Part shown: piece after piece, positions 23,889-43,139 of the stretch
Layout of the letters: each line of letters starts with the position of its first letter
Numbering within the stretch: position 1 is the first letter of the stretch
Source: Maritalea myrionectae DSM 19524
Lineage (GTDB): Bacteria; Pseudomonadota; Alphaproteobacteria; Rhizobiales; Devosiaceae
Direction of reading: 5' to 3'
Assembly: GCF_000423365.1 (NCBI RefSeq)
Contig: NZ_AUHV01000002.1
Span: forward strand, 496,001 to 560,000
Length of the DNA: 64,000 bases
Made by a program: the position numbers and the translations under genes
Notes under the pieces: model-generated
The model's input: the letters and a program-made list of their open reading frames with translations, nothing else
The model's database searches: none
What the model was told of the DNA's origin: nothing

Positions 23889-23916
23889 GCCATCTTCATT
23901 GATGCGTGTTTTAGAA

Positions 23917-23944
23917 GGCGGGGCGCTCAGCGCTCCGCCTTTTT
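23917..23944 (+). terminator. rho-independent terminator of the opp operon
   Basis: GC-rich stem GGCGG-GCGCT / AGCGC-CCGCC with a short loop, followed by TTTTT, 28 bp after the oppA stop. It separates opp from the glycosylation gene run. Confidence 0.92.
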
Positions 23945-24029: not shown

Positions 24030-26465
24030 ATGAACCGATCTGAACGCCGCCGCCAAGAAAAGCTTGCACAAAAGCAGCAAAATACTGGCACCGGTCTAGG
24101 GCCGATAAATGATCTGCTGGCGCAAGGTGTTGCCCACCACCAAAAGGGCGAACTGTCTCAAGCTGAAGCCAAGTATCAAGCCATCCTAAAAATCAATCCG
24201 CACCATGGCGATGCCAACCACCTGATGGGCCTACTCGCTAAGCAAGTTGGAAAGTTTGATATCGCAAAGCAGTTCTTGGAAAAAGCGCTGCTCGCCAATC
24301 CCAATCACCCGCAATATCTCAACAATATCGGTGGCGTGCTCAAGGATTTGGGAGATTTGGAAAGCGCGAGAACGCATCATCTATTAGCGACACAGGCAGA
24401 CCCTAAACTCGCCGCCGCATTTAACGGCTTGGGCATAGTCGAAAAAGCACTAGAGCATTTTGAAGACGCTAAAAAGGCGTTTGAGACGGCTGTTAAGCTT
24501 CAACCGCAAAACCCCGAAATACTCAATAACCTTGGCAATTTATATACAGATATGGGAGATGCCGAGAAGGGTTTAGAGTATAATGAGCGCTCACTCGCTG
24601 TTGCCCCAGATCTACCGATTTCGCAATATAATCGAGCCGTTTCGTTGCAAAAAATCGGGCGGATTGAAGACGCGATTGCACAATATGAAGCTGTTCTCAA
24701 GTCTAGCCCAGATTTTGCACCTGCGCATTGCAATCTGGGCATATTGGCGCGTGAAACCGGAGATCTTTCTTCAGCCATCGCACATGGCCAAAAAGCGGCA
24801 GAGCTCGACCCGCAAAATTCCGATTATTATTATAATCTTGGTCTGGCCCTCAATGAAGCGGGGGAATATGACGATGCTCTGGCCTGTTTTGAAGGGGCAT
24901 ACACGATCAAACCTGATCACGCCCACGCGTATAATGACCATGGCAATGTATATTTTGCGATGCGCCAATTTGAAAGCGCAATTTCAAGCTACGCAAAGGC
25001 AGTGGAATTAGCTCCAAACTCAGCTGGTATGCATAATAATTTGGGCAACGCCTATTTGAAAATTGGCTCACTGGTGGAAGCCAAGGTCGAATTTTTGCGT
25101 GCGCTCGAATTACGACCTAGCCACGCCAATGCACACAGTAATCTGGCCAGCCTTTATAAGGATTTGGGCGAATTGGAGCTTGCACACCAGCATTATGAAC
25201 AAGCACTGGAACACCAGCCAGATTTCACAGTTGCCTATTCAAACATGCTGTTCACCATGAACTATGACCCTCATAAAACGGGTGAGGAGATTTTTGAGTG
25301 GTATAAAGAATTCAATAAGCGATATGCCGCGCCTTTCTGTTCAGAACAAAAGCCACATGAAAACGACCGCAGCCACGGTCGGCGTTTGCGCGTTGGATAT
25401 GTAAGTGGGGCTTTTCACAAGCATTCGGCGGTTTTTCACCTTCTGCCATTGTTCGAGGGCAGAAATCGAAAAGACTTCGAAGTCTTTGCATATGCTGATA
25501 TCGCGCAAACAGATGGCTATACGGAGCAATATAAGGCTAATTGTGATCACTGGATCAAGATCAATGATCTGGACAATGCTGCACTCGTGGAGCGTATCCG
25601 TTCAGATCAAATTGACATTTTAGTCGACATCTCCGGACACACAAGAGGTGGGCGCCTGCTTACCTTTGCGCGTCGGCCCGCTCCAGTATCTTTACACTGG
25701 CTCGACTTTGGCTACACCACAGGGATGGATGCCATCGATTATTATTTGGGCGATGAGCATGTCACACCGGCGCGCGACGATCATTTGTTCGGCGAGCGGG
25801 AAGTGTGGCGGCTAGATGGCCCCTCAGTGGTTTATCGGCCCGGACCCGACATGGGCGACGTTAGCCCATTGCCTGCCAAGAAAAACGGCTTCGTCACTTT
25901 TTGCACCTTGTCGCGTTCAGTGCGAATGAATGAGAAAACCATCAAGGTTTGGGCAGAGATATTAAAGCGGGTTAAAGGATCAAAATTGCGTTTAGATAGT
26001 CGCAATTATATGGATCCAATGATGTGTGATCAGGTCGCTGAAAAGTTTGCCAAATTTGGTATCGAACGTGACCGTCTGATCATGGGCTTTAACAGCCCGC
26101 CTTGGGATGTATTACGGGAAATTGATATCGCCCTCGATTGCTTCCCGCACAATTCGGGCACCACCTTGTTCGAGCATCTTTATATGGGCAACCCCTATGT
26201 GACGCTATACAATCGCGCCAGCGTGGGCACGCTGGGTGGGGCGATATTGCGCCATTGTGGATTTGGCGAATGGGTGGCGCAAAGCGAAAAGGAGTATGTC
26301 GATATAGCGGTTGATCTGGCCAGCGATCTCGACAAATTGGCAGATATCCGCGCCACAATCCGCGAAAAGATGCAGGACAGCCCGGCGATGGATGAAAAAG
26401 CCTTCGTCAAACGTATGGAAAATGCTTACCGTCAAATGTGGACACGATATTGTGAAACAGCGTAG
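24030..26465 (+). CDS. TPR-repeat GT41 (SPINDLY/OGT-like) glycosyltransferase, copy 1
   Basis: Cytoplasmic protein of 811 residues with no signal or membrane segment. Residues about 25-410 are consecutive 34-residue tetratricopeptide repeats (repeated N-x-LG / A-x-x-P spacing, e.g. PEILNNLGNLYTDMGDAEKG). Residues about 450-800 are a GT41 domain: RVGYVSGAFHKHSA with the conserved base-region His465, DILVDISGHTRGGRLLTFA, and DIALDCFPHNSGTT. GT41 enzymes attach a sugar to Ser/Thr of proteins, with the TPRs selecting the target. The usual donor motif with GHTTT is SGTT here, and the FGSFNN-type strand is FCTLSR, which suggests a donor other than UDP-GlcNAc. It is the first gene of the sugar biosynthesis run and has a close paralogue directly downstream. 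Confidence 0.9.
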   Translation: MNRSERRRQEKLAQKQQNTGTGLGPINDLLAQGVAHHQKGELSQAEAKYQAILKINPHHGDANHLMGLLAKQVGKFDIAKQFLEKALLANPNHPQYLNNIGGVLKDLGDLESARTHHLLATQADPKLAAAFNGLGIVEKALEHFEDAKKAFETAVKLQPQNPEILNNLGNLYTDMGDAEKGLEYNERSLAVAPDLPISQYNRAVSLQKIGRIEDAIAQYEAVLKSSPDFAPAHCNLGILARETGDLSSAIAHGQKAAELDPQNSDYYYNLGLALNEAGEYDDALACFEGAYTIKPDHAHAYNDHGNVYFAMRQFESAISSYAKAVELAPNSAGMHNNLGNAYLKIGSLVEAKVEFLRALELRPSHANAHSNLASLYKDLGELELAHQHYEQALEHQPDFTVAYSNMLFTMNYDPHKTGEEIFEWYKEFNKRYAAPFCSEQKPHENDRSHGRRLRVGYVSGAFHKHSAVFHLLPLFEGRNRKDFEVFAYADIAQTDGYTEQYKANCDHWIKINDLDNAALVERIRSDQIDILVDISGHTRGGRLLTFARRPAPVSLHWLDFGYTTGMDAIDYYLGDEHVTPARDDHLFGEREVWRLDGPSVVYRPGPDMGDVSPLPAKKNGFVTFCTLSRSVRMNEKTIKVWAEILKRVKGSKLRLDSRNYMDPMMCDQVAEKFAKFGIERDRLIMGFNSPPWDVLREIDIALDCFPHNSGTTLFEHLYMGNPYVTLYNRASVGTLGGAILRHCGFGEWVAQSEKEYVDIAVDLASDLDKLADIRATIREKMQDSPAMDEKAFVKRMENAYRQMWTRYCETA

Positions 26466-26498
26466 TTTATTCAATTTTTGTCAACAACAGGTGCTGTG

Positions 26499-29102
26499 AT
26501 GGCTCCGCCCCAAAAAAACTTGGCTTCTAAACAACCGACAATCGCAGAGTTGTTGGCAAATGGGGCCAATCACCATAAAAAGGGAGAGTTGCAGAAGGCG
26601 GAAGCCCACTATGCAACAATATTAAAAATTGAGCCCGGCCATGGTGATGCCAATCATTTGATGGGGCTGTTGGCCAAGCAGGTGGGAAATCTTGACATGG
26701 CCAAGGAATTCTTGGCCAAAGCCGTTGAATCCAATCCTAAGCACCCGCAATATCGTACGAACCTCGCAAAATTGCTGCTGCAGCGTGGTGAAGCAGACGA
26801 AGCGTTGGACGCTATTGTTGCAACACCACCGCCCCACACAATTGAGGTGCAACTGCTGCACGGGGTCGCCCTGCAAAGCCTTGGCCAGCTTGAGAAGGCC
26901 ATCAGTCAACTTCGGACAATTTTGAAACACACTCCCAAATTCGCGCCGGCGCTGCATCATCTCGGCATCATCTTGCGGTTGCAGGGGAAGATTGAGGCGG
27001 CGATTGAATATGGACAACAGGCCATATCGCTTGCACCACAAAATGCCGAATTTCACTTTCAACTGGGCCTCACTTACGCAGAAAGTGGCACCAGAGCAGC
27101 GTCAATTTCCTGTTTTGAAAAAGCGATGAAGCTCAACCCCAACCATGCAGCAAACTGCAGCGCCTTGGGCATACAATTGCTGTTTGAAGAACGGAATGAA
27201 GAGGCATTGGCCAAGCTAGAACGGGCCGCCGAATTGGCACCAGACTCTGCGGAGTACCGCAACAATTTGGGCAATGGTTATTATGCTTTGAGAAAGCTGG
27301 ATGCCGCCAAAGATCAATTTTTGAAAGCAATTGAGCTCGACCCGAACAATGCAGGTGCGCAGAACAATCTCGGCATCCTCCTGCGTGAATTAAATTGTCC
27401 GCTGGAGGCCTTAAAGCATAATCGGCGTGCCGTTGAACTTTGCCCTGATGACGCAAATATGCACAACAGTTTGGGCAACACACACCACCAATATGGTCAG
27501 TTAATTGAAGCAAAAGCGGCGCTGGAAACCGGAATTTCTTTAGACCCAAACAACGCGGACGCACACGCTAATTTATGTGTAGTGCTGCGCAAACTTGATT
27601 TGACGGACATGGCGATAAAATCGGGGAAAAGAGCCGTAGAACTCGCCCCTAAAATGGCGCGGGCACATAATGGGTTGGGAATGGCTTTTTTGCAGCACGG
27701 CGACCTGGCCGCTGCGAAACCGGCCTTTCAAATGGCGCTGGAAATTAATCCTGAACATGCCAAGGCACACAGCAATCTGGCCAGTCTTTATAAAGATTTT
27801 TGCGATTTTGATCTGGCACATTACCATTTTGAGCAAGCGCTGGAGGCTGATCCCACGTTCAGCACTGCTTTTTCCAACATGTTGTTCACCATGAACTATG
27901 ACCCAGCCAAAACGGGCGAAGAAATTTTTGCTTGGTATCAACAATATAATGAACGTTACGCCGCACCGCTTAAAGACGAGCAAAAACCGCACACGAACGA
28001 TCGCACAATCGATAGAAAATTGCGCATTGGCTATGTCAGCTCAGCCTTCCAAAGGCACCCCGCTGCATATCATTTTCCGCCCCTTTTTGAGTTTGCCGAC
28101 AGGGACCGGTTCGAAATTTTCGCCTATGCGGATATGTCAAAAACCGATGCATATACCAAGCAGTATATGGACCACTGTGACCATTTCAGCAAAACCAACG
28201 GCATGAGCGACGAAAGTTTAGCGACACGAATTTGTGAGGACCAGATTGATATTCTGGTCGATATTTCGGGTCACGCCAAGGGCAACCGGCTGTTGACCTT
28301 TGCCCGCAAGCCAGCGCCGGTTTCCCTGCACTGGCTCGATTTTGGCTACACCACCGGCATGGATGCCATTGACTATTATCTGGGCGATGAGCATGTCACA
28401 CCAGCGCGCGACGATCATTTGTTCGGTGAACGGGAGGTTTGGCGGCTGGACGGGCCTTCGGTGGTCTATCGCCCGGGCCCCGACATGGGAGAGGTCAGCC
28501 CACTGCCCGCCAAACAGAATGGCTATGTGACCTTTTGCACCCTGTCGCGCTCAGTGCGCCTCAATGAAAAAACCATCAAGGTCTGGGCCGAAATCCTCAA
28601 ACGGATTGAAAGGTCGAAACTGCGGTTGGATAGCCGCAACTATCAAGATGAGGTGATGTGTGACCGGGTGGCTGAGCAGTTTGCCGCACACGGTGTCTAC
28701 CGTGATCGTCTGATCATGGGCTTTAACAGCCCGCCTTGGGATGTGTTGCGCGAAATTGATATTGCGCTTGATTGCTTCCCCCACAATTCGGGCACCACGC
28801 TTTTTGAGCATCTTTATATGGGCAACCCTTATGTTACGCTCTACAATAGAGCCAGCGTGGGCACATTAGGTGGCGCTATTTTGCGGCATGCAGGTTTTGG
28901 CGAGTGGGTGGCGCACACCGAAGACGAATATGTTGATATTGCGGTTGATTTGGCCAGTAATCTCGACAAGTTGGCCGACATCCGTGCCACTATGCGATCC
29001 AAAATGGAGAATGGTCCTGCCATGGATGAAAAAGCCTTTGTAACCCGTATGGAAGACGCCTACCGACAAATGTGGAAACGCTATTGTGAGACGGAAGTAT
29101 GA
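26499..29102 (+). CDS. TPR-repeat GT41 (SPINDLY/OGT-like) glycosyltransferase, copy 2
   Basis: Paralogue of the preceding gene, 867 residues, 33 bp downstream. It shares the N-terminal repeat (GDANHLMGLLAKQVG is identical) and nearly the whole C-terminal domain, while the central repeats have diverged and are longer by about one to two units. The conserved histidine is His520 in SSAFQRHPAAYH. GT41 motifs DILVDISGHAKGNRLLTFA and DIALDCFPHNSGTT match copy 1. ATG 26499 is chosen over a TTG at 26478. Its last codons overlap the cytidylyltransferase start (ATGA), tying it to CDP-sugar synthesis. Different TPR surfaces and a common catalytic domain suggest two enzymes using one donor on different proteins; this is inference. 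Confidence 0.9.
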   Translation: MAPPQKNLASKQPTIAELLANGANHHKKGELQKAEAHYATILKIEPGHGDANHLMGLLAKQVGNLDMAKEFLAKAVESNPKHPQYRTNLAKLLLQRGEADEALDAIVATPPPHTIEVQLLHGVALQSLGQLEKAISQLRTILKHTPKFAPALHHLGIILRLQGKIEAAIEYGQQAISLAPQNAEFHFQLGLTYAESGTRAASISCFEKAMKLNPNHAANCSALGIQLLFEERNEEALAKLERAAELAPDSAEYRNNLGNGYYALRKLDAAKDQFLKAIELDPNNAGAQNNLGILLRELNCPLEALKHNRRAVELCPDDANMHNSLGNTHHQYGQLIEAKAALETGISLDPNNADAHANLCVVLRKLDLTDMAIKSGKRAVELAPKMARAHNGLGMAFLQHGDLAAAKPAFQMALEINPEHAKAHSNLASLYKDFCDFDLAHYHFEQALEADPTFSTAFSNMLFTMNYDPAKTGEEIFAWYQQYNERYAAPLKDEQKPHTNDRTIDRKLRIGYVSSAFQRHPAAYHFPPLFEFADRDRFEIFAYADMSKTDAYTKQYMDHCDHFSKTNGMSDESLATRICEDQIDILVDISGHAKGNRLLTFARKPAPVSLHWLDFGYTTGMDAIDYYLGDEHVTPARDDHLFGEREVWRLDGPSVVYRPGPDMGEVSPLPAKQNGYVTFCTLSRSVRLNEKTIKVWAEILKRIERSKLRLDSRNYQDEVMCDRVAEQFAAHGVYRDRLIMGFNSPPWDVLREIDIALDCFPHNSGTTLFEHLYMGNPYVTLYNRASVGTLGGAILRHAGFGEWVAHTEDEYVDIAVDLASNLDKLADIRATMRSKMENGPAMDEKAFVTRMEDAYRQMWKRYCETEV

Positions 29103-29872
29103 AGGCTGTGATCCTGGCCGGGGGCCTCGGCACCCGCATTTCGGAAGAAACCCATCTTCGCCCCAAGCCCATGATTGAAATTGGGGGAATGCCGCTCCTA
29201 TGGCACATTTTGAAGCTTTATTCACATCACAATATCAACGAGTTTGTCGTGTGCTGCGGTTACAAGGGCTATGTGATCAAGGAATATTTCGCCAATTACT
29301 TCCTGCATAAATCGGATGTCACTTTCGATATCGGCAAAAATCAGATGCATGTGCATGAGCGCCACGCCGAGCCGTGGAAAGTGACGCTGGTTGATACAGG
29401 CGTTGATACGCTAACCGGCGGACGCCTAAAACGCATTGCTGAATATGTCAAAAATGACGACGCTTTTTGCATGACCTATGGGGATGGCGTTGCAGATGTG
29501 AATGTTTCAGAGCTTGTCAAATTTCATCGGGCCCATGGGCGCTTGGCCACTATCACCGCAGTGGCCCCGCCGGGGCGGTATGGTGCGCTTGAAACAAAGG
29601 GTGATGCCGTTACCGGTTTTAACGAGAAACCGCGCGGGGATGGCGGTGCGATTAATGGAGGGTTCTTTGTGCTATCCCCAAAATGTCTCGATCTGATCCA
29701 GGGAGACGACGTTAGTTGGGAGGAAGGGCCGCTTACAACCTTAGCAGCGGACAACCAGCTACATGCCTTTTCACACGATGGATTTTGGCAGCCAATGGAC
29801 ACGTTGCGCGATAAAAATCGTCTCGAACGAGCTTGGCAGTCAGGCGAAGCGCCATGGAAAGTGTGGGAATAG
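29099..29872 (+). CDS. rfbF: glucose-1-phosphate cytidylyltransferase
   Basis: Makes CDP-glucose from CTP and glucose-1-phosphate, the entry step to CDP-deoxysugars. The 257-residue product has the nucleotidyltransferase opening LAGGLGTRISEETHLRPKPM and the RfbF-specific features GYVIKEYFANYFLH, WKVTLVDTGVDTLTGGRL and FCMTYGDGVADV. Length equals that of characterised RfbF proteins. ATGA overlap with the second TPR-GT41 gene and 6-bp gap to the CDP-glucose dehydratase show one operon. Confidence 0.95.
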   Translation: MKAVILAGGLGTRISEETHLRPKPMIEIGGMPLLWHILKLYSHHNINEFVVCCGYKGYVIKEYFANYFLHKSDVTFDIGKNQMHVHERHAEPWKVTLVDTGVDTLTGGRLKRIAEYVKNDDAFCMTYGDGVADVNVSELVKFHRAHGRLATITAVAPPGRYGALETKGDAVTGFNEKPRGDGGAINGGFFVLSPKCLDLIQGDDVSWEEGPLTTLAADNQLHAFSHDGFWQPMDTLRDKNRLERAWQSGEAPWKVWE

Positions 29873-29878
29873 GCTGAA

Positions 29879-30940
29879 ATGGACCGGCCACAGCTCGACC
29901 CAACATTTTGGGCAGGAAAAAAGGTTTTGGTCACGGGCCACACAGGCTTTAAGGGCGCGTGGCTTTGCCATTGGCTTTTGCGGCTCGGCGCACACGTTAC
30001 AGGTTTCGCTTTGGCGCCTAACACATCGCCAAATCTTTTTGATTTGCTCGATCTGGACTCGCGTATGGACAGCACATTTGGTGACCTACGCAACTACGAG
30101 GTCGTTCAAAAGACATTGCATGCAGCGCAACCAGAGATCGTTCTGCACCTTGCGGCGCAAGCCTTGGTGCGCGCCTCTTACGATGATCCGTTGACCACAT
30201 TCGAAAGCAATGTGATGGGGACAGTGCACTTGCTGGAAGCAATCCGCTCAGCCCACGCGCTTAAGGTTTGCCTCGTAGCGACAACGGACAAAGTTTACCG
30301 CAATTTGGAACAAGGCGTACCGTTTTGCGAAGACGACCCGCTCGGAGGGCATGATCCATACAGCGCCAGCAAGGCGGCCACGGAAATTGTCATTTCCTCC
30401 TATCGACATAGCCTTTTCAAGGATGCCTCACCAAAGCTTTTGAGCGCACGGGCAGGCAATGCAATTGGCGGAGGCGATTGGTCAGCCGATCGGATCATTC
30501 CCGATGCCATCCGCGCTTGGTCAAACAAGCAAACCTTAAACGTGCGTCGACCAAATGCGTTGCGCCCATGGCAACATGTTTTGGAGCCTTTGTTCAGCTA
30601 TCTCATTCTTTGCCAATCGGCACATGAGACCCACTACGCAAACTACAATATCGGCCCCGCCACCGACGATAAAATGAGCGTTGGAGAGTTGATCCAACAA
30701 GCTCAAACCTGTTTTGGTCGCGGCGAATTTGAATTCGGCACCGGGGACAAGGGACCGCACGAGGCCGGACTGCTGCAACTGGATGCAAGTCGTATCAAGA
30801 ATGAATTGGGCATTGCGCCAGCGTGGTCGAGCAAAGAAGCATTGAAACGGACAATGGCGTGGTACAAAAACCAAGATGGTGGAGCCAACGCCCAGGAGCT
30901 TTGTGACCGCGATATTGAGGCATTTGAGGCCACCACATGA
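29879..30940 (+). CDS. rfbG: CDP-glucose 4,6-dehydratase
   Basis: NAD-dependent extended SDR of 353 residues converting CDP-glucose to CDP-4-keto-6-deoxyglucose. Motifs: VLVTGHTGFKGAWLCHWL (NAD binding), VATTDKVYRN with the TDK catalytic Thr-Asp pair, and DPYSASKAATE with catalytic Tyr and Lys. The downstream DWSADRIIPDAIRAW and RPNALRPWQHVLEP are typical of RfbG. It overlaps the epimerase gene by 4 bp. The 4-keto product is the branch point for the methyltransferase and aminotransferase that follow. Confidence 0.95.
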   Translation: MDRPQLDPTFWAGKKVLVTGHTGFKGAWLCHWLLRLGAHVTGFALAPNTSPNLFDLLDLDSRMDSTFGDLRNYEVVQKTLHAAQPEIVLHLAAQALVRASYDDPLTTFESNVMGTVHLLEAIRSAHALKVCLVATTDKVYRNLEQGVPFCEDDPLGGHDPYSASKAATEIVISSYRHSLFKDASPKLLSARAGNAIGGGDWSADRIIPDAIRAWSNKQTLNVRRPNALRPWQHVLEPLFSYLILCQSAHETHYANYNIGPATDDKMSVGELIQQAQTCFGRGEFEFGTGDKGPHEAGLLQLDASRIKNELGIAPAWSSKEALKRTMAWYKNQDGGANAQELCDRDIEAFEATT

Positions 30941-31494
30941 AATTTGATATAACGCCAACAGCAATCGATGGTGTCTTCATTCTCCAACGTCAGCAAGTCG
31001 GCGACAAGCGTGGCCATTTTTCGCGGTTATTCTGCGCAGAACAATTTCGAGAACTGGGATGGGATACACCAGTTGCTCAGACAAACCTGTCGCATAATAA
31101 CGGAGAAGGTACCCTTCGTGGCTTGCATCTGCAGTTGCGACCGCATACGGAAATGAAATTTGTGCAAGTGTTGACGGGCGAAGTGCTTGATGTCGCAGTA
31201 GATATGCGACGCGCATCGGCAACATTTGGTCAACATGTGGCAGTTGAATTAAGTGACAGCAATCGTTATGGCCTGCTTATTCCTAACGGTTGCGCCCACG
31301 GTTTTCAGGTACTCAGTGCCCAGGCGACATTGCTTTATCACCACTCAAGCGCCTACCACCCAGAATCAGAAACTGGCGTGCGCTTTGATGATCAAACCTT
31401 GGCCATCAACTGGCCGCTGCCGCCTCAAAACCTATCTGATCGCGATCAGGCATTGCCGTCATTTCTCAGCTTTGGCGAAGGTGTGGCGTTATGA
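30937..31494 (+). CDS. dTDP-4-dehydrorhamnose 3,5-epimerase-like protein (RfbC family)
   Basis: A 185-residue cupin of the RmlC/RfbC type. Motifs TNLSHNNGEGTLRGLHLQ (with the catalytic histidine after RGL) and DVAVDMRRASATFGQHVAVE match the family; FQVLSAQATLLYHHSSAYHPE covers the second active-site strand. In this CDP-sugar setting it probably epimerises C3 and/or C5 of CDP-4-keto-6-deoxyglucose, alone or before C-methylation. No rmlA, rmlB or rmlD is present, so a dTDP-rhamnose role is unlikely. ATGA overlaps on both sides. Confidence 0.88.
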   Translation: MKFDITPTAIDGVFILQRQQVGDKRGHFSRLFCAEQFRELGWDTPVAQTNLSHNNGEGTLRGLHLQLRPHTEMKFVQVLTGEVLDVAVDMRRASATFGQHVAVELSDSNRYGLLIPNGCAHGFQVLSAQATLLYHHSSAYHPESETGVRFDDQTLAINWPLPPQNLSDRDQALPSFLSFGEGVAL

Positions 31495-32717
31495 GATGTC
31501 GTCATTGCAACGCTGAGCTCAATCACGACCTAATCGACCTGGGCGAAATGCCGCCTTCGAATGCCTACCTCATCGAAGCGGAATTGACCAAAACTGAGCC
31601 TACCTACCCGCTTAAGGTAAAGGTTTGCGATAACTGCTTTTTGGTGCAGACCGAAGACTTCGCCCGGGCTGACGAATTATTCACTGCAGACTATGCCTAC
31701 TTTTCCTCGACCTCACAAAGCTGGCTGGCGCATGCCCGTCGCTTTGCAGATTCTGCGATCGAACGCTTTCAGCTCTCCAAGGAAAGCTTGGTGATCGAGC
31801 TCGCGTCAAATGACGGCTATTTACTGAAGAACTTTGTCGCTGCCGAGATACCCTGTCTGGGGGTTGAGCCAACCAATGCCACGGCAGATGCGGCAGAAGG
31901 ATTGGGTATCCCCCAATGGCGTGATTTTTTTAGCCGCAGGGCAAGCGAAAAGATCATGGCGCAATATGGCCAGGCTGATCTGATTATTGGCAACAATGTT
32001 CTCGCGCATGTGCCTGACATTAATGACTTTGTGTCTGGCGCGGCCAGTTTGCTGAAATCAACCGGCACGATCAGCTTTGAGTTTCCGCACCTTTTGAATC
32101 TTCTGCGCCATTGCCAATTCGATACGATCTATCATGAGCACTTTTCTTATTTGTCGATGATTGCGTTACAACGGATTGCGCAGGCAGCACAGCTGAAAAT
32201 CATTGATGTGATGCAATTGCCCACCCATGGCGGCAGCTTGCGGGTTTATCTGGCGCATCATGATGATCCGCGCGCACCGAGTGCAAATGTGGATGCGGTC
32301 CTGCGCGAAGAATTTGATTTCGGCATAGCCGACATCACAACATATGAGGCGCTTCAACAAGAAGCAGAACGGATCAAAGCGGAACTTGTCGACTTTTTAG
32401 CAAGCGCCCGCGCGGATGGGAAAAAGGTGCTCGGCTATGGCGCGGCCGCAAAGGGCAACACGCTGCTGAACTTTGCAGGTGTCACGCCAGATTTATTGCC
32501 GATGATCGCCGATGCCGCCCCGTCGAAACAAGGCAAATATATGCCCGGAAGCCATATCCCTATTGTGACGCCAGATCAGCTGGTGCATGCTGAACCCGAC
32601 GACGTATTGATCCTACCTTGGAATATCGGGCCCGAAATAATGGCGAGTATTTCGCCGCGTTTTTCTTCCAAACCAAGGTTTGTTTGGGCCATCCCCACAC
32701 TAACCATAGAAGAATAG
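31491..32717 (+). CDS. sugar C-methyltransferase (class I SAM-dependent)
   Basis: A 408-residue NDP-hexose C-methyltransferase of the TylC3 type. Domain order: an N-terminal zinc-binding region with Cys pairs in MRCRHC and CDNCFLVQ, a SAM-binding domain with VIELASNDGYLLKNF (about residue 100) and IIGNNVLAHVPDINDF, then the C-terminal domain with LGYGAAAKGNTLLNFAG. Family members add a methyl group to a carbon beside the keto group of an NDP-4-keto-6-deoxysugar, often C3. With the CDP-4-keto sugar made by the two preceding genes, the expected product is a CDP-3-C-methyl-4-keto-6-deoxyhexose; the position is inference. Confidence 0.88.
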   Translation: MRCRHCNAELNHDLIDLGEMPPSNAYLIEAELTKTEPTYPLKVKVCDNCFLVQTEDFARADELFTADYAYFSSTSQSWLAHARRFADSAIERFQLSKESLVIELASNDGYLLKNFVAAEIPCLGVEPTNATADAAEGLGIPQWRDFFSRRASEKIMAQYGQADLIIGNNVLAHVPDINDFVSGAASLLKSTGTISFEFPHLLNLLRHCQFDTIYHEHFSYLSMIALQRIAQAAQLKIIDVMQLPTHGGSLRVYLAHHDDPRAPSANVDAVLREEFDFGIADITTYEALQQEAERIKAELVDFLASARADGKKVLGYGAAAKGNTLLNFAGVTPDLLPMIADAAPSKQGKYMPGSHIPIVTPDQLVHAEPDDVLILPWNIGPEIMASISPRFSSKPRFVWAIPTLTIEE

Positions 32718-32777
32718 TGATTTTGCGTTAAACTTGGTGCGAATCGAACATCCGTTCCACCATTTTTGAGGCATATC

Positions 32778-33926
32778 ATGTCAGATATACCCGTCTTTAA
32801 GCCATTGATTACTCAGGATGAAATTAGCGCTGCCGTCGAATCTTTGGAGATGGGCTGGCTCGGCATGGGCAGCTATGTCGCCGAATTTGAGGCCAAGATT
32901 GCTGAGGTCATTCAAGCGCCTGACCGTCACGTCTCTGCGGTGAGTACCGGCACAGCCGCACTGCATGTTGCGCTTCTGGTGGCTGGTGTTGAACCGGGTG
33001 ATGAGGTCATCGTTTCCGCGTTCAATTGCTCTGCGGACTATCAGGCCATCAGCTGGGTTGGCGCAGATATCGTATTTTGCGATTGTGATGATGACACGTT
33101 GGAAATGGATATGGACAAAGCGGAGACGCTGGTGTCAAACAAAACCAAAGCCATCATCATCATGGATTATGACTGCATCATTTCGGACTATGACCGGGTT
33201 GATGCCTTTGCAAAAAAGCATGATTTGCGCGTCATCCATGATGCCTGTCACTCCTTTGGCTCTTCTTTTAAAGGCAAGCCTGTAGGCTCTTATTCTGACA
33301 TTTGCGTGTTCAGCTTTGATCCGGTGAAAACAATCACCTGCCTTGATGGCGGCGCTGTTGTTGTACGCACTGAAGAAGAGCAGAAATATGTGCGCGAGCT
33401 GCGGCTTTTGGGGATGCAGCAGCCTTCGGAAGTGATGTATCAGAACAAGCGCGCTTGGACATTTGATGTGGAACGCGTGGGCTTTCGCTATCACATGCTC
33501 AATCTTCACGCCGCCATCGGGGTACGGCAAATCGAAAAGTTGGAGCAAATCCGTAGCACGCGCGTCGCCGCATCGCGCCGCTATTCAGAACATTTGGCGC
33601 CAATCTCAGAGGTCCGCACACCCAATTCTGAATTTAATGAGGTCAACCCCTTCCTTTATTACATCCGCGTGCCGGCCGAGGATCGTGACGATCTGCGCAC
33701 CTACTTGAAGGAAAAGGGCATTGACACCGGCATACACTGGCAGCCAGGTCATTGGTTTAGCCTATGGAAGGATTGCCGCAAAGGCGATTTGAGCGTCACC
33801 GATGCCGTGGGCAATGAAATCCTCTCGCTGCCACTTCATTCGATGATGGACCTTGCGCTGGTGGACCAGGTAAGTGACGCGATCTCACAGTTCTTCTCAA
33901 ATAAAGTGACTAGCCATGATGGTTGA
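32778..33926 (+). CDS. DegT/DnrJ/EryC1/StrS family aminotransferase
   Basis: A PLP-dependent sugar aminotransferase of 382 residues. The PLP lysine is Lys184 in FSFDPVKTITCLDGG (family consensus SFH..K....GEGG; here SFD and a CLD variant), preceded by VIHDACHSFGSSFKG with the PLP-ring Asp. STGTAALHVALL forms the phosphate-binding region. ATG 32778 has GAGG 7 bases upstream and is preferred over a TTG at 32766. The 60-bp gap before it is the largest inside the run, so a second promoter is possible. It should aminate the 4-keto sugar. Some relatives act on C3 instead. Confidence 0.9.
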   Translation: MSDIPVFKPLITQDEISAAVESLEMGWLGMGSYVAEFEAKIAEVIQAPDRHVSAVSTGTAALHVALLVAGVEPGDEVIVSAFNCSADYQAISWVGADIVFCDCDDDTLEMDMDKAETLVSNKTKAIIIMDYDCIISDYDRVDAFAKKHDLRVIHDACHSFGSSFKGKPVGSYSDICVFSFDPVKTITCLDGGAVVVRTEEEQKYVRELRLLGMQQPSEVMYQNKRAWTFDVERVGFRYHMLNLHAAIGVRQIEKLEQIRSTRVAASRRYSEHLAPISEVRTPNSEFNEVNPFLYYIRVPAEDRDDLRTYLKEKGIDTGIHWQPGHWFSLWKDCRKGDLSVTDAVGNEILSLPLHSMMDLALVDQVSDAISQFFSNKVTSHDG

Positions 33927-34563
33927 TCGCAGTGAAGTATTCCAAATCATGAAGAGTGGCTTCGGCCTTTGCCTGCCGATTGACGGGCAACCCAACGCGA
34001 TCTTGCGCCCGGTCGTAACCGACAGCGACAAAATTGACCCGCAGGATGTCGACCGCCTCACCCGTTGGCGGAATGAGCACGTTATTCGCTTTTTGACTGA
34101 GTTTGATGCCACCGCCGAGCAGACAACACAATGGTTGATCAATCGTGTGGGGCCGGACAATGGCAAAATTCTATTGATGGTCGAATTTGAAGGCAAGACC
34201 GTTGGCCATACCGGACTTGGATTCGGCAATTGGTCGGCAAATTATATTGAGGCCGATGCCATTGTGCGGGGCGAAGATGCACCTCGGGGCCTCATGAAAA
34301 AGGCGTTGCAAAGCACCCTCTCTTGGGCGCGCGACTCCTTGGGTCTCGTTGACCAATGGGTTCGGGTACGTTCGGATAATCCAGCTGTGAAGTTCTATGA
34401 AGCAGTCGGCTTTCAAGAGGTAAAGCGTGTACCGTTAGACTATCGCATTGAAGGGGCAATGAAAACGTGGTTTGAGCGCACTGATCATGAGTCTGCCCTA
34501 GCCTCGCTTGTTTATATGCAGCTTGGAACGCACAATGCATCGCAGGTTGGGAGCAAGGCGTGA
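33916..34563 (+). CDS. GNAT family N-acetyltransferase
   Basis: A 215-residue acetyltransferase of the RimJ/RimL-like GNAT group. It has the early PQDVDRLTRWRNEHVIRFL segment, KILLMVEFEGKTVGHTGLGF, the acetyl-CoA loop region RGEDAPRGLMKKALQ and the late VRVRSDNPAVKFYEAVGF. It overlaps the aminotransferase by 11 bp and the next gene by 4 bp. In this position it most probably N-acetylates the amino sugar, as in other nucleotide-amino-sugar pathways. Two adjacent ATG codons (33916, 33919) are both possible starts. Confidence 0.85.
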   Translation: MMVDRSEVFQIMKSGFGLCLPIDGQPNAILRPVVTDSDKIDPQDVDRLTRWRNEHVIRFLTEFDATAEQTTQWLINRVGPDNGKILLMVEFEGKTVGHTGLGFGNWSANYIEADAIVRGEDAPRGLMKKALQSTLSWARDSLGLVDQWVRVRSDNPAVKFYEAVGFQEVKRVPLDYRIEGAMKTWFERTDHESALASLVYMQLGTHNASQVGSKA

Positions 34564-35204
34564 CCCCTGCCGCACTCGCCAGATATGTCGCGCAACAACT
34601 TGCCAACTTGCTGCCGGACACTGACATTGACGCTGTTGAGGCAGAAATCTCGCGCCACCTACCAAACACGCTGGATCGTCTCCATTATTTAATCAAGCAT
34701 GTAAAAATGTGGACGCCGGGCAAATTCGACCATTTGCATTCGACGCAATATTGCACCTTTCTCTATCTGCTCAGCAACGAGATCTTCACCCAGACCGGTG
34801 AGCGAGAACTACCCACACGCATTTTTCTGCTGAATAAGGCGATGAACGCGATTGATCTTTTTTATGAAATCGATCTGCCGCCAGTATTTTTCATCGGACA
34901 TTCCGCCGGGATCGTGTTAGCCAAAGCGACATATGGCAATTATCTCGTGCTCTATCAAAACTCAACGGTTGGAAAGAACCACGGCAAGGCTCCTAAAATT
35001 GGTGACGGCGTAATTGTTTATCCCAATAGCGCGATCATTGGTGATACAGAAATCGGCGATCATTGCGTTTTGGGCCAAGGCACCAGCGTGATTAACCAAA
35101 TTGTGCCAAGCAATCAGTTTGTCTTTAATGGCACAGGCTCCTCACCGTTGCTAAAACCAACACCCCAAGACCAATTGCCGTTGGAAGAATATTTCCGCGT
35201 TTAA
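34560..35204 (+). CDS. left-handed beta-helix acyltransferase (serine acetyltransferase-like)
   Basis: A 214-residue protein with an N-terminal helical domain (about 1-100) and a C-terminal hexapeptide-repeat helix (FIGHSAGIVLAKATYG, then IGDGVIVYPNSAIIGDTEIGDHC). The catalytic-type His lies in GHSAG and another in GKNHGKAP. The layout resembles serine acetyltransferase, but the cluster context suggests O- or N-acylation of the sugar or of a formyl/acyl donor. GTG start overlaps the GNAT stop (GTGA). It carries a second acyl-transfer activity next to a GNAT, so the sugar may bear two acyl groups or the two act at different steps. Confidence 0.8.
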   Translation: MTPAALARYVAQQLANLLPDTDIDAVEAEISRHLPNTLDRLHYLIKHVKMWTPGKFDHLHSTQYCTFLYLLSNEIFTQTGERELPTRIFLLNKAMNAIDLFYEIDLPPVFFIGHSAGIVLAKATYGNYLVLYQNSTVGKNHGKAPKIGDGVIVYPNSAIIGDTEIGDHCVLGQGTSVINQIVPSNQFVFNGTGSSPLLKPTPQDQLPLEEYFRV

Positions 35205-35211
35205 AAGGAAC

Positions 35212-36135
35212 ATGCCTGTGATTTTATGTTGTGGCGAAGCGTTGATTGATATGTTGCCGATGGAGGCGGCCGATGGGCGGTTGGGATTTGCGCCAGCCGT
35301 CGGCGGTTCGGTTTTTAACACGGCTGTGGCGCTTGGGCGCTTGGGCGCGCAAGTTTCTTTTCATTCCAAAGTCGCCACAGATGGTTTGGGCGAACAGTTG
35401 CGCGGCGCGCTGTTAGATAGCCACGTCAATCTTGATCATCTCAAACGTAGCAAACTGCCCACACCGCTTGCGATGGTCCATCTCAAAGATGGCCACGCCA
35501 GCTATCAGTTTTATGATGAAGGGACCGCCGCACAGGATTTCACTGACGATGAGACATTGCCCATACCGAACAAGGTGCACATGGCATTTTTCGGCGGCAT
35601 TAGCTTGCTTGGGTCAAAATCCGGGCCGTATTATCAGCGTATTTTAACCGAGATGGCGCAACATGTTCCCGTGATGCTCGACCCCAATATACGACCGAGT
35701 TTCATTGCCAATGAATCTGCCTATCGTCGCGAATTGGATGCCCTCTTTCCGCATGTGAGCATTTTGAAGGTCTCCGATGAAGATCTGGCGTGGATTGCCG
35801 GCCTAAAGTCTGTTGACGAAAAGATCCAAGAAATCTTCGATTTCGGCACCAAGCTTATATTGATCACCAAGGGGGGTAACGGCGTTGAGGCGATTGGACG
35901 ACATGTGCGCATCAATGTTCCGGCTGCGCCCGCAGATGTGGTTGATACTGTTGGGGCTGGGGACACGTTCACGGCTGGTTTTTTAAGCGCGCTGCAGGAA
36001 GACGATCTGTTCGGCTCCTTGCTTACCATTAGTGAAGAGCAGTTGGCCCGCGCCGTACAGCTGGGCGCACACGCGGCGGCGATCACCGTATCACGCCATG
36101 GCGCCAATCCCCCATGGCGAGAAGAGTTAGGCTGA
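35212..36135 (+). CDS. PfkB family carbohydrate kinase (fructokinase-like)
   Basis: A 307-residue ribokinase-fold kinase with both signatures intact: GGSVFNTAVALGRLGAQVSF near the N-terminus and DTVGAGDTFTAGFLSAL with the catalytic Asp. CCGEALIDMLP at the start is typical of fructokinases. It follows the acyltransferase by 7 bp and closes the plus-strand run, overlapping the 3' end of cueR by 9 bp from the other strand. It may feed hexose phosphate into the CDP-sugar pathway or be an unrelated passenger. Contrast with the altered kinase-like protein at 16845-17759. Confidence 0.88.
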   Translation: MPVILCCGEALIDMLPMEAADGRLGFAPAVGGSVFNTAVALGRLGAQVSFHSKVATDGLGEQLRGALLDSHVNLDHLKRSKLPTPLAMVHLKDGHASYQFYDEGTAAQDFTDDETLPIPNKVHMAFFGGISLLGSKSGPYYQRILTEMAQHVPVMLDPNIRPSFIANESAYRRELDALFPHVSILKVSDEDLAWIAGLKSVDEKIQEIFDFGTKLILITKGGNGVEAIGRHVRINVPAAPADVVDTVGAGDTFTAGFLSALQEDDLFGSLLTISEEQLARAVQLGAHAAAITVSRHGANPPWREELG

Positions 36136-36531
36136 TTTGGCGGTGTTTCGTCCGGCCAGATCGTCCAAAATCGGGCAGTCGGGCCGCTGATCCCCGTGGC
36201 AGTTTTTCACCAGCACTTTTAGGGTGGACCGCAGGCTTTGAAGTTCGGCGATTTTCTCATCGACCTTTTGGATTTTTTCACGCGCGATCCGTTTAACGTC
36301 TGCGCTGGCGCGGCCCTCATCATCGTAGAGTGATAGCAGCGTGCGGCACTCTTCAATGGTGAAGCCGAGGCTGCGCGAGCGCTGCAGAAATCGCAGTCGA
36401 TGTACATCATCGTCCGAATAGTCGCGATAGCCATTCTCTGCCCGGTCAGGTTTGATCAGGCCAATATCTTCATAATAGCGGATGGTTTTGGTGGGAAGAC
36501 TTGTGGCTTCCGCCGCATTGCCGATGTTCAT
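36127..36531 (-). CDS. cueR: Cu(I)-responsive MerR-family regulator CueR
   Basis: A 134-residue MerR regulator: N-terminal winged helix (MNIGNAAEATSLPTKTIRYYED), long dimerisation helix, and the metal loop CHGDQRPDC, two cysteines separated by seven residues as in Cu(I) sensors. It activates the 19-bp-spacer promoter at 39093-39123 and lies as the last gene of the copA transcript, so it is probably autoregulated. The ATG overlaps the stop of the upstream 49-residue ORF (ATGA). Confidence 0.93.
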   Translation of the reverse strand: MNIGNAAEATSLPTKTIRYYEDIGLIKPDRAENGYRDYSDDDVHRLRFLQRSRSLGFTIEECRTLLSLYDDEGRASADVKRIAREKIQKVDEKIAELQSLRSTLKVLVKNCHGDQRPDCPILDDLAGRNTAKSA

Positions 36532-36677
36532 TTCTTTATCTCCTCGCCCCGGCCATATAGTTTGCGCAATTCAGCCATTTCCTCTTCAGAAAAGCCGATG
36601 GCGTGTGCTTTGCACAACAGCTCATTTAAAGGCGTGGTCGCCTGATCTGACTTTTGTTCTTCGCAAATAATTGACAT
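36528..36677 (-). CDS. 49-residue hypothetical protein between copA and cueR
   Basis: A small ORF that starts MSIICEEQKSD and ends GRGEEIKK. Support: AAGGAAA ribosome site 6-7 bases before the ATG at 36677, a start 19 bp after the copA stop, and a stop that overlaps the cueR start (ATGA), which is the spacing of a translated gene. It has two cysteines (Cys5 and Cys22), a predicted helix LNELLCKAHAIG and an acidic segment EEEMAEL. No known family is recognised. A copper-binding accessory peptide or a leader for cueR translation are both possible. Confidence 0.7.
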   Translation of the reverse strand: MSIICEEQKSDQATTPLNELLCKAHAIGFSEEEMAELRKLYGRGEEIKK

Positions 36678-36696
36678 GTTTTTCCTTTCAGAAGTT

Positions 36697-39057
36697 CTAA
36701 AGCTTCAGGCCGCGCAGGCGCAGGGCGTTCCCGATGACAGATACGGATGACAAACTCATGGCAGCGGCGGCCAGCATGGGCGACAAAAGCGCGCCCGTTA
36801 GTGGAAACAGGATACCGGCGGCAACTGGCACACCCACGCTGTTGTAGGCGAATGCAAAAAACAGATTTTGCTTGATGTTGCGTAGGGTGGTTTTTGCCAG
36901 TTTGCGGGCGCGCACAATCCCGGTTAAATCGCCTTTCAGCAGCGTTATACCCGCACTTTCAACGGCCACATCCGCCCCGGTGCCCATGGCCAAGCCCACA
37001 TCGGCAGCTGCCAAAGCCGGCGCATCATTAACGCCGTCACCCGCCATGGCAACTTTTTTGCCTTTGGCGCGCAACTCTTCCACGAGGGCTTTTTTGTCTT
37101 CAGGGAGCACCCCTGCGCGGACATCATCAATATTGAGATCGCGAGCGACAGCCTTTGCGGTGCGCTCATTGTCACCGGTGGCCATAATCACCTCAAGCCC
37201 TTGTTCATGCAGCGCGGCAATGGCCGACTTTGTGGTGGGTTTGATTTTGTCGGCAACGGCAATGATCGCCACCAAATCGCCGTCTTTGGCCAAATACATG
37301 GCCGTTTTGCCCTGCTCTTGCAGCGCTGCAGCCTTGTCCTGCGCGTCATCAGACGTTGCACCCAATTGTTGCATCAGCGCCCAGTTGCCAAATCCCAGTT
37401 TGGCGCCAGAAACCGTGCCGAGAACGCCCTTGCCCGTCACTGCTTCAAAATCCGATGTATCGCTAAGCGCGACATTTTTTTCTTTCGCGGCATTGACGAT
37501 GGCTTCGGCCAAAGGATGCTCTGAGCCTTGCTCCAATGACCCGACAAGCTGCAGCAGTTCGTCTTCATCGCCCGCCAAGGCGACAATATCCGTCAGGCTT
37601 GGTTTGCCTTCGGTCAGGGTGCCTGTTTTATCGACCACCACAACATCGACTTCAGCCATGCGTTCCAATGCGGATGCTTCGCGCACCAACACGCCAGCTT
37701 GGGCGCCACGCCCCGTTGCAGTCATCACAGACATGGGCGTTGCCAAGCCCAGCGCGCACGGGCAAGCGATGATCAAGACGGACACAGCGGCGATCAGCGC
37801 ATAAAGGATTGAAGGCGATGGCCCAAAGAAGAACCAGACGCCAAAGGCGATAATCGCAATAGCCACAACCGCAGGCACAAAATAGCTGGCCACTTTGTCG
37901 GCAAGGCCTTGGATCGGCGCTTGCGAACGCTGGGCAGAAGCGACCATCGCAACAATTTTGGAGAGCATGGTCTCTTCGCCCACATGGGTCGCTTTCATCA
38001 CCAGCGTGCCATTTTTATTGATGGTTCCCCCGGTGATTTTGTCGCCGACATTTTTTTCAACTGGCACCGGTTCGCCGGAAATCATTGACTCATCAATTGC
38101 GGTTGAGCCTTCGATGACTTCCCCATCAACGGGTACGGCTTCGCCGGGACGCACGCGCAGCCTGTCACCAATCAGGATATTTTCCAAAGGCGCATCATAT
38201 TCGCTGCCATCATCATTGATGCGGCGCGCGGTTTTGGGCGACAGGTCAAGCAATGCGCGAATGGCGTCTCCCGTGCGTTCTCGTGCCCGCAATTCAAGCA
38301 CTTGCCCCACAAAGACCAGCGCAATGATCACCACTGCGGCCTCATAATAAACTGGCGGATGCCCCATAACCAGCACTTCCGCGGGCAATAGACCGGGAAA
38401 GAGCGTTGCCAAAACGCTGAAGCCATATGCGGCCCCGACGCCCAGCATAATCAGTGTCCACATATTGTAGTTGGTGGTTCGGATGGAGTTCCACCCACGT
38501 GCGAAGAAGGGTTGGGCGGCCCACAGCACCACAGGCGTCGCCAAAATCAGCTCCAGCCAAATGGCGATATTTTCGCCGATCCATTGTCGAATGGGCAGGC
38601 CAATCATTGGCCCCATGGTGAGGATTAACAGGGGAACTGCCGCCGCAACGCTTACCCAAAGGCGCCGCGTGAAATCAACCAATTCATGGTTTTCTTCCGA
38701 AGGCACGCCATCCATAGGCTCCAACGCCATGCCACAAATCGGGCAACTGCCCGGCTCATCCCGCACAATTTCGGGGTGCATGGGGCAAGTATATTTCACA
38801 TTTTTCGGGGCCGTTTCCGCTTTTTTCTTACTGCCACCAGATATATAGAAATAGGGGTCGGCCTCGAACTTGTCATGGCACTTTTGCGAGCAGAAATGAT
38901 ACTCTTCACCCTTGATGGTGAGACTAGGTTTTCCTGCATTCACGTCCACTTTCATGCCGCAAACGGGGTCAATAGCCGTCGCACCATTGTCCGAATTACC
39001 GTGATGAGTGTGATCGTGGGCGCTTTTTGAATGCGCGTTTTCAGTGTGGTCGGCCAT
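36697..39057 (-). CDS. copA: copper-translocating P1B-type ATPase CopA
   Basis: Exports Cu(I) from the cytoplasm. 786 residues: a His-rich start (HAHSKSAHDHTHHGNS-like), a YHS domain (YHFCSQKCHDKFEADPYFYI), a heavy-metal-binding segment CPMHPEIVRDEPGSC, then the ATPase core with CPC (IACPCALGLATP), DKTGTLTEG, and GDGVNDAPALAAAD. It lacks the CxxC HMA domains of E. coli CopA, as is usual for this YHS subgroup. It is the first gene of copA-ORF49-cueR and has a CueR promoter 36-66 bp upstream of its ATG. Confidence 0.95.
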   Translation of the reverse strand: MADHTENAHSKSAHDHTHHGNSDNGATAIDPVCGMKVDVNAGKPSLTIKGEEYHFCSQKCHDKFEADPYFYISGGSKKKAETAPKNVKYTCPMHPEIVRDEPGSCPICGMALEPMDGVPSEENHELVDFTRRLWVSVAAAVPLLILTMGPMIGLPIRQWIGENIAIWLELILATPVVLWAAQPFFARGWNSIRTTNYNMWTLIMLGVGAAYGFSVLATLFPGLLPAEVLVMGHPPVYYEAAVVIIALVFVGQVLELRARERTGDAIRALLDLSPKTARRINDDGSEYDAPLENILIGDRLRVRPGEAVPVDGEVIEGSTAIDESMISGEPVPVEKNVGDKITGGTINKNGTLVMKATHVGEETMLSKIVAMVASAQRSQAPIQGLADKVASYFVPAVVAIAIIAFGVWFFFGPSPSILYALIAAVSVLIIACPCALGLATPMSVMTATGRGAQAGVLVREASALERMAEVDVVVVDKTGTLTEGKPSLTDIVALAGDEDELLQLVGSLEQGSEHPLAEAIVNAAKEKNVALSDTSDFEAVTGKGVLGTVSGAKLGFGNWALMQQLGATSDDAQDKAAALQEQGKTAMYLAKDGDLVAIIAVADKIKPTTKSAIAALHEQGLEVIMATGDNERTAKAVARDLNIDDVRAGVLPEDKKALVEELRAKGKKVAMAGDGVNDAPALAAADVGLAMGTGADVAVESAGITLLKGDLTGIVRARKLAKTTLRNIKQNLFFAFAYNSVGVPVAAGILFPLTGALLSPMLAAAAMSLSSVSVIGNALRLRGLKL

Positions 39058-39092
39058 GGGTGCTCCTTTCGGACAGCAATTGCATGGTGACC

Positions 39093-39123
39093 GTTCTAAT
39101 CCTTCCAGTCAATGGAAGGTCAA
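39093..39123 (-). promoter_or_regulatory. CueR-dependent promoter of copA
   Basis: On the minus strand TTGACC (39123-39118) and TAGAAC (39098-39093) are separated by 19 bp, the over-long spacer typical of MerR-family promoters. The spacer holds a dyad of CCTTCC and GGAAGG, the Cu(I)-regulator site. The copA ATG is 36 bp below the -10 box. Confidence 0.9.
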
Positions 39124-39153
39124 GCGATTAAAAGAGTGTTGCCGAAAACGAGG

Positions 39154-42819: not shown

Positions 42820-42858
42820 ATGATCATTCTCCGCAACTGCGCCAAGGGCGCGATAGGC

Positions 42859-43077
42859 TTATTTAAAGCGGTAGGTGATCCGCCCTTTGGTCAGATCATA
42901 AGGTGTCATTTCCACCAGCACCTTATCGCCTGCCAAAACACGAATCCGGTTTTTGCGCATCCGGCCCGCAGTGTGGGCGATGATTTCATGGTCGTTTTCT
43001 AGCTTCACCCGGAAAGTAGCGTTCGGCAACAATTCTTGCACGACGCCCGGGAATTCGAGCATTTCTTCTTTAGCCAT
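42859..43077 (-). CDS. infA: translation initiation factor IF-1
   Basis: A 72-residue OB-fold protein, the exact usual length. It opens [19 protein letters not shown] and contains [19 protein letters not shown], the RNA-binding core, and ends KGRITYRFK. It lies downstream of the UPF0262/phosphatase gene and upstream of maf. AGGAGAC ribosome site before the ATG. Confidence 0.97.
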
Positions 43078-43139
43078 TCTGTCTCCTGAGCTAATTTTTC
43101 CGCCTTATAGCAGCATAGGCTGGGGGAAACTATACAAAA

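Follow-up and report, generated by a model that had tools for sequence, protein, structure and literature searches.

We analyzed a stretch of 64,000 nucleotides from the genome of the α-proteobacterium Maritalea myrionectae DSM 19524 (Devosiaceae; contig NZ_AUHV01000002.1, positions 496,001 to 560,000), hereafter called the window, in which ten genes running along the plus strand at 24030-36135 combine two putative protein glycosyltransferases of family GT41, carrying tetratricopeptide repeats (TPR), with genes for a CDP-activated sugar. All ten genes of the run reported in a preliminary description of this DNA were found, and the two TPR-GT41 genes and the sugar-gene families listed there were confirmed by the scores of profile searches. 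The several ATGA overlaps mentioned in the same description are borne out by four-base overlaps at four junctions (GT41b/rfbF, rfbG/rmlC, rmlC/C-methyltransferase and GNAT/hexapeptide acyltransferase), with an 11-base overlap between the DegT and GNAT genes. A stem-loop with a U-tail (23913..23943, plus strand) lies 3' of the upstream oppA-like gene and is the probable left boundary of the unit, so that the start of the run is probably to be placed at GT41a; it has a z score of -3.38 over an 82-nt stretch, none of 200 shuffled sequences being as stable, and is absent from the listing of a consensus terminator scan. Between 23800 and 36700, promoter-like matches (15 vs. 12.2 in shuffled sequences, standard deviation 3.7) and terminator-like matches (21 vs. 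15.5, standard deviation 4.3) are barely above expectation. No glycosyltransferase other than the GT41s was found in the run by means of the list of open reading frames and a family scan. The run is more than a chance assembly, its order GT41-rfbF-rfbG-rmlC recurring in four further Maritalea genomes.

The first two genes, GT41a (24030..26465, plus strand) and GT41b (26478..29102, plus strand, with an uncertain TTG start), are tandem paralogues, and no further GT41 was found in the genome. The catalytic domain PF13844 (Glyco_transf_41) scores 139.5 and 138.8 bits in the two proteins (cut-off 25), which places both in the GT41 family, and it is preceded in each by a region in which many TPR families score above their cut-offs; in GT41a this superhelix spans about residues 24-400. 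Since the catalytic domains are 79% identical, nearly the same, and the middle of the TPR part is only 39% identical, the two enzymes probably act with one and the same sugar on different acceptors or sites. An AlphaFold2 model of GT41a, for which four sequences were used, has a mean pLDDT of 65.9, the TPR part being confident and the catalytic domain mostly below 50. The nearest solved relatives of the catalytic domain, judged by sequence only, are SPINDLY and chain 5djs, which we take to be the O-GlcNAc transferase (OGT) of Thermobaculum. Alignment with OGT and SPINDLY shows that the catalytic His is kept (His465) and that the catalytic Lys is replaced by Arg632; in human OGT these residues are H558 and K842. 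The K842 position is occupied by Lys in 42 and by Arg in 10 of 52 aligned GT41s, the latter including all six Maritalea enzymes, and the His is present in 50. Because the Lys is replaced in all six, these enzymes lack the His plus Lys pair of OGT proper and are not classified as OGT. Among the 20 rows labelled as CDP-paired in the 52-row tree described below, 7 have Arg (the six Maritalea enzymes and that of locus L084) and 13 have Lys, so that the Arg is not required for pairing with CDP-sugar genes and instead marks the Maritalea clade, one member of which (L048) has Lys.

The genes that follow, all on the plus strand, begin with those for glucose-1-phosphate cytidylyltransferase, rfbF (29099..29872; TIGR02623, 458.1 bits, cut-off 300.25), and CDP-glucose 4,6-dehydratase, rfbG (29879..30940; TIGR02622, 430.1 bits, cut-off 278.45). 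Both exceed the equivalog cut-offs, as is proper for a CDP-6-deoxyhexose pathway, and each was found once in the genome (E up to 1e-60 for rfbF, up to 1e-30 for rfbG). They are followed by an RmlC-like 3,5- or 3-epimerase (30937..31494; PF00908; TIGR01221, 169.5 bits, cut-off 155.75), whose presumed substrate is a CDP-4-keto-6-deoxy sugar and whose nearest solved relative is RmlC, with NovW further down, and by a sugar C-methyltransferase (31491..32717) of the TylCIII/TcaB9 3-C type, with the zinc-binding N-terminal domain, the S-adenosylmethionine domain and the C-terminal PF08484 of such enzymes (PF08421, PF13489, PF08484); its closest solved relatives are the mycarose 3-C-methyltransferase and TcaB9 (4rv9, E 1.9e-74; 3ndi, E 1.3e-66). 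The next gene encodes an aminotransferase of DegT/ArnB type (32766..33926; PF01041), in which residue 188 is the presumed pyridoxal phosphate-binding Lys and whose nearest solved relatives, ArnB and perosamine synthase, are both C4 enzymes. Two acyltransferases then follow, both assigned by family matches: one of the GNAT family (33916..34563), presumably an amino-sugar N-acetyltransferase, for which no solved relative was found in a structure search, and a hexapeptide or LbH protein resembling serine acetyltransferase (34560..35204). The latter is more likely an O-acyltransferase of the sugar, because its relatives occur in gene sets without a DegT match (L068, L082, L085, L086). On the basis of homology for every step, the expected product is CDP-4-acetamido-3-C-methyl-4,6-dideoxyhexose.

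Other types of donor were considered for the window genome and rejected. A dTDP-6-deoxysugar is set aside since the genome has no rmlB match at E up to 1e-100, and a nonulosonic acid, as used by FlmG, since it has no match to NeuB. Sugars of the 3,6-dideoxy type made with RfbH (abequose, paratose, ascarylose) are likewise rejected, the DegT protein scoring 130.2 bits against the RfbH cut-off of 423 and having Lys in the motif where RfbH carries His; this judgement is confined to the DegT protein, no RfbH search having been made over the rest of the genome. (NeuB does occur in two other genomes of the genus, at G289:C8:1639999-1640700 and G292:C6:4173-4889, and nonulosonic acids thus vary within Maritalea.)

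The Maritalea sample comprises six genomes, that of the window included, among which G289 is M. mediterranea and G293 is M. mobilis. GT41 and rfbG are present in the same five of the six, G290 lacking both; each of the five has just one rfbG, and rfbF, rfbG and the rmlC-like gene directly follow GT41 in all five islands, as we call these gene runs hereafter. A scan of named genomes returned M. mediterranea P4.10X (73% identity) and M. mobilis (69%), plus one distant protein of Gemmatimonadota. In comparison with the window, the flanking oppA, oppF and MerR-type regulator genes of these two species are 85-99% identical, the genes from GT41a to the hexapeptide acyltransferase are 64-89% identical where present, and PfkB is 70-71% identical. 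The tail of the island is where the species differ. The order DegT-GNAT-hexapeptide of the window becomes DegT-formyltransferase-hexapeptide in M. mediterranea, which keeps DegT (88% identity) and the hexapeptide enzyme (84%) and has, in place of GNAT, a formyltransferase (PF00551) with GDP-4-amino-4,6-dideoxymannose formyltransferase as its best solved match (5vys, E 1.1e-11). Such an exchange of an N-acetyl- for an N-formyltransferase beside a retained aminotransferase is expected of a 4-amino sugar, and hence supports a C4-aminated, N-acylated product. The tail of M. mobilis has a gene for a CmcI-type methyltransferase, one for an SDR, and an additional hexapeptide gene on the opposite strand; G291, inspected by eye, has CmcI- and SDR-like genes that resemble them. 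The last gene of the window's run, a PfkB sugar kinase (35212..36135, plus strand; family match), stays in place when the tail genes change in M. mobilis and is probably a conserved neighbour and not part of the pathway, even if its identity resembles that of the island genes, so that its exclusion is not firm. The single full set for one nucleotide sugar that had been proposed for this run is therefore retained from RfbF to the acyltransferases, with the kinase probably outside it.

The association of GT41 with rfbF extends beyond the genus. In a class sample of 289 genomes, GT41 (E up to 1e-40) is found in 77, rfbF (E up to 1e-60) in 79 and rmlB (E up to 1e-100) in 114; the linkage counts that follow are lower bounds, 64 of the 77 GT41 genomes being among the matches listed. 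The distance from GT41 to rfbF is at most 15 kb in at least 8 of the 34 genomes with both, against 0.61 expected for uniform placement in 4.2 Mb, and that from GT41 to rmlB in 0 of 42, against 0.73 expected (Fisher p 0.001; 7/33 and p 0.002 without the window genome). The same holds within 3 kb (at least 4/34 vs. 0/42) and within 25 kb (at least 9/34 vs. 0/42). These statistics ignore relatedness, and two of the eight linked genomes share a genus. In a phylum sample of 299 genomes, inspected by eye among the matches listed, GT41 and rfbF are adjacent in G601 and G561, about 5 kb apart in G565, 15-17 kb apart in G363 and G335, and about 19-20 kb apart in G359 and G360; the regions of the first five were examined further. 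In trees of the catalytic domain with 47 and 52 rows, for which paired rows were chosen because paired and of which the larger has a bootstrap that is not fully settled, the paired GT41s do not form one clade but require at least three changes on the starred branches, which may be one gain and two losses. The closest GT41 outside Maritalea (50% identity) belongs to G135, which also has a close rfbF (70%), the two lying on different contigs. In sum, GT41 and rfbFG are jointly present or absent in the Maritalea genomes and are neighbours in several other GT41 lineages.

The paired loci vary in content. At four of them (L065, L066, L067 and L071) rfbF is present with no rfbG match in the examined stretch. 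L065 (5921-9219) and L066 (3680-6965) have a TPR-GT41 directly upstream of rfbF and after proteins that by eye look repetitive and secreted, and it is possible that this enzyme uses plain CDP-glucose. L067 (6030-16381) encodes two GT41 catalytic domains in one frame of 1589 residues, behind which lie rfbF and two or more C-methyltransferase-like genes. On plasmid p1 of Desulfolutivibrio sulfoxidireducens (L082; NZ_CP045507.1, 40674-47844), TPR-GT41, rfbF, rfbG, an rmlC-like gene, a C-methyltransferase, an acyltransferase and an SDR form one run, directly after the gene for a large calcium-binding protein, 6501 bases long, and that for an M23 peptidase. In L081 (7769-11132, genome G283) a TPR-GT41 precedes a DegT-type aminotransferase, 28% identical to that of the window, with no rfbF nearby. 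(Five small plasmids of Brachyspira hyodysenteriae, NZ_CP117022.1 and four others, H65-H69, encode a C-methyltransferase with about 50% identity to that of the window.)

Nine loci outside Maritalea have GT41, rfbF, rfbG and the C-methyltransferase in one stretch (L068, L069, L070, L082, L084, L085, L086, L087, L088), and flagellar genes occupy the same stretch in five of them. At these loci flagellins, FlbT and FlaF were recognized as Pfam matches, and flgI, flgK and flgL by similarity to the window-genome genes that we take to be their counterparts. In L068, L069 and L070 the full set lies between flgL and flagellin. L084, which belongs to the same order as Maritalea, has two flagellin genes followed by GT41, rfbF, rfbG, C-methyltransferase, hexapeptide, SDR, CmcI, flbT, flaF, flgL and flgK, with no rmlC match in the stretch. 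L087 has two flagellin-like genes beside GT41, the cassette lying some 9-13 kb further on. In position, these five loci resemble flagellin glycosylation islands. The L084 enzyme has the same Arg as those of Maritalea and joins them in a supported clade (100/99, 11 rows), although it has a long branch and its finer position is weakly supported. Of the other members of this clade, L008 lies beside a flagellin-like gene with no CDP cassette nearby, L013 and L048 have neither a flagellar gene nor a CDP cassette in the examined stretches, and L006 is on a 3.1-kb contig. GT41 has flagellar placement without a nearby CDP cassette also in G035. (In L089, 5516-16304, a flagellin-like gene is flanked by three GT41 genes, one of Arg type, again with no CDP cassette nearby.)

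From the observed gene identities, their conservation, the joint presence and absence, the tailoring swaps and the flagellar placement in some relatives, we infer the donor use, the exact sugar, the acceptor and every enzymatic step of the following scheme, which we consider fairly probable. The run would encode a cytoplasmic O-glycosylation system whose donor is a CDP-activated, probably 3-C-methylated and N-acetylated 4-amino-6-deoxyhexose and whose likeliest acceptors are flagellins. RfbF would make CDP-glucose, which RfbG would convert to CDP-4-keto-6-deoxyglucose; the RmlC-like enzyme would epimerize this at C3, or at C3 and C5, and the C-methyltransferase would add a methyl branch, expected at C3. 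The DegT enzyme would then aminate C4 and the GNAT enzyme acetylate the new amino group; an O-acyl group may be added by the hexapeptide enzyme. One or both TPR-GT41s would hold acceptors by means of the TPR superhelix and transfer a single sugar from CDP to Ser or Thr. By calculation from the inferred pathways, each modified site would gain 201.10 Da in the window species (3-C-methyl-4-acetamido-4,6-dideoxyhexose; 243.11 Da with an added O-acetyl group), 187.08 Da in M. mediterranea, where N-formyl replaces N-acetyl, and 174.09 or 216.10 Da in M. mobilis, for a C-methyl, O-methyl 6-deoxyhexose lacking or bearing O-acetyl; in the species of G290 this pathway would contribute nothing. Foremost among the candidate acceptors are the five flagellins encoded in tandem on another contig of the window genome, which would be modified before export, as by FlmG in Caulobacter with a different donor. 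The island would thus work like a flagellin glycosylation island, though it is not one by position. The predicted joint function in protein glycosylation put forward earlier gains from the comparison (joint presence and absence, conserved neighbours, flagellar placement in 5/9 loci). A broader proposal, which we put forward tentatively and hold somewhat short of even, is that a class of GT41 has come to use CDP-activated deoxy(amino) sugars with a C-methyl branch, with the Arg in the Maritalea clade, forming a swappable system of flagellin decoration across α-proteobacteria and beyond, the Desulfolutivibrio plasmid included, in which close species would bear different sugars on similar filaments.

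Several observations weigh against the scheme of flagellin glycosylation from a CDP-sugar. The features of the island vary: among the five Maritalea islands, four gave a C-methyltransferase match and three a DegT match, with the qualification that the G292 island, in a genome 83% complete, sits on an 8.8-kb contig and so has an incomplete tail. Other glycan donors exist in the genus, given the NeuB of G289 and G292, and we know of no GT41 described with a CDP donor, the characterized enzymes using UDP-GlcNAc, GDP-fucose or, for the HMW1C type, UDP-glucose. This range of donors fits an alternative in which a transferase encoded away from the run puts the CDP-sugar into lipopolysaccharide or capsule and the GT41s, ordinary O-GlcNAc transferases using UDP-GlcNAc, merely adjoin the sugar genes. 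So do the 35 further genomes outside Maritalea, none of which has both genes (rfbG above cut-off without GT41 in G322 and G324, GT41 without rfbG in G303, G311, G313 and G321), and the 26 of the 34 class genomes with both GT41 and rfbF in which no linkage within 15 kb is seen among the matches listed. A stretch of Desulfolutivibrio sulfodismutans p1, moreover, lacks GT41 and has rfbF, rfbG, rmlC and the C-methyltransferase beside a GT2 and one further glycosyltransferase, so that the arrangement named in the preliminary description as contrary to a joint function, rfbFG served by separate glycosyltransferases, does exist in part; relatives of the C-methyltransferase also occur in 136 plasmid records, many of them rhizobial. 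Mere adjacency would nonetheless leave unexplained that the six Maritalea genomes have either both genes or neither, the position of GT41 as the first gene before rfbF in 5/5 islands, where it is the sole transferase recognized (for the islands outside the window, in the parts read by eye), the pairing with rfbF in more than one GT41 clade and with rmlB in none, and the replacement of the catalytic Lys by Arg in the Maritalea enzymes. We therefore regard a destination in lipopolysaccharide or capsule as unlikely.

On the side of the acceptor, searches showed no flagellin gene adjoining the island in any of the five Maritalea genomes, and the flagellin region of the window genome has no match to island genes. 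G290 keeps its flagellins without the island, and G292, at its limited completeness, gave only an FlgL-like match in the flagellin search; the regions after oppA in these two genomes show no island genes. Nor was a flagellar gene found in the examined stretches of L082, L085, L086 and L088, in the last of which the stretch ends 553 bases from the start of the GT41 frame. The donor could thus be the CDP-sugar with other secreted or surface proteins as main acceptors, or several proteins at once, as the repetitive proteins preceding GT41 in L065 and L066 (by eye), the calcium-binding protein and M23 peptidase of L082 and the different TPR parts of the two GT41s would allow; against this stands the flagellar placement in the five loci described above and, for GT41 itself, in G035, and we hold it improbable that flagellins are not the main target. 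It is very doubtful that the enzymes, having Arg at the K842 position, as do ten of the 52 aligned GT41s in all, would be inactive or non-transferases, since the paralogous catalytic domains remain 79% identical, neither His465 nor the tandem duplicate has been lost, 5djs has Met at the aligned position and the abstract of the Thermobaculum paper speaks of a conserved O-GlcNAc transferase.

Next to the run, on the minus strand (36127-40530), lie genes for the MerR regulator, a CopA-like P-type ATPase and a multicopper oxidase, by their look a copper resistance cluster. Genes that we take to be HisD-like and Maf-like are found at 42187-45421, about 6 kb from the run, and also at L047 (516-4278), a few kb from the G291 island, which suggests one shared neighbourhood with local rearrangement.

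Among known systems, SPINDLY differs from the window's GT41s in keeping the catalytic Lys, and its donor is GDP-fucose; neither SPINDLY nor Thermobaculum OGT is, to our knowledge, clustered with its own sugar genes. According to the accessible part of the report on it (PMC7591256), FlmG of Caulobacter crescentus is a flagellin O-glycosyltransferase with a TPR N-domain, which binds flagellin, and a GT-B C-domain, its sugar being pseudaminic acid with CMP activation inferred. The window's enzymes resemble FlmG as α-proteobacterial TPR-transferases, proposed to be cytoplasmic, with several flagellin paralogues as proposed acceptors; unlike it, they sit with CDP-sugar genes in a genome with no NeuB match. 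In the accessible part of a survey of enterobacterial flagellin islands (PMC4875605), some include GT41, genes for DegT, acetyl-, formyl- and methyltransferases are among them, and type 23, from four strains, encodes CDP-4-keto-6-deoxyglucose synthesis. There strains, and here species, differ by swapped tailoring enzymes; those islands, unlike that of the window, lie in the fliC region, and that part of the survey does not state whether type 23 includes a GT41 and names no 3-C-methyltransferase of TylCIII type. Similarly, a flagellin island for CDP-paratose has been predicted in Clostridium butyricum DSM 10702, with RfbF and RfbG as suppliers of flagellin glycosylation (PMC13317340). That bacterium belongs to a different phylum, RfbH/RfbS give paratose, and the portion of the paper available names a predicted flagellin glucosyltransferase and no GT41. 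These predictions (PMC4875605, PMC13317340) weaken the earlier statement that no TPR-GT41 is known with a CDP-deoxy-amino donor: islands with CDP-sugars and islands with GT41 have each been predicted in print, and what is new is their pairing with a branched sugar, of which no report was found in the open-access literature, subscription papers lying outside the search.

If the proposed scheme is correct, CDP-activated branched amino sugars would join UDP-GlcNAc, GDP-fucose, UDP-glucose and the nonulosonic acid of FlmG among the donors of TPR-type O-glycosyltransferases. Since the predicted sugars differ between closely related marine species, and one species lacks the locus and so offers a natural null, simple mass measurements across Maritalea species could then address both donor specificity and what flagellin sugars are for, and the finding would point to a way of decorating bacterial flagella that has been little described.

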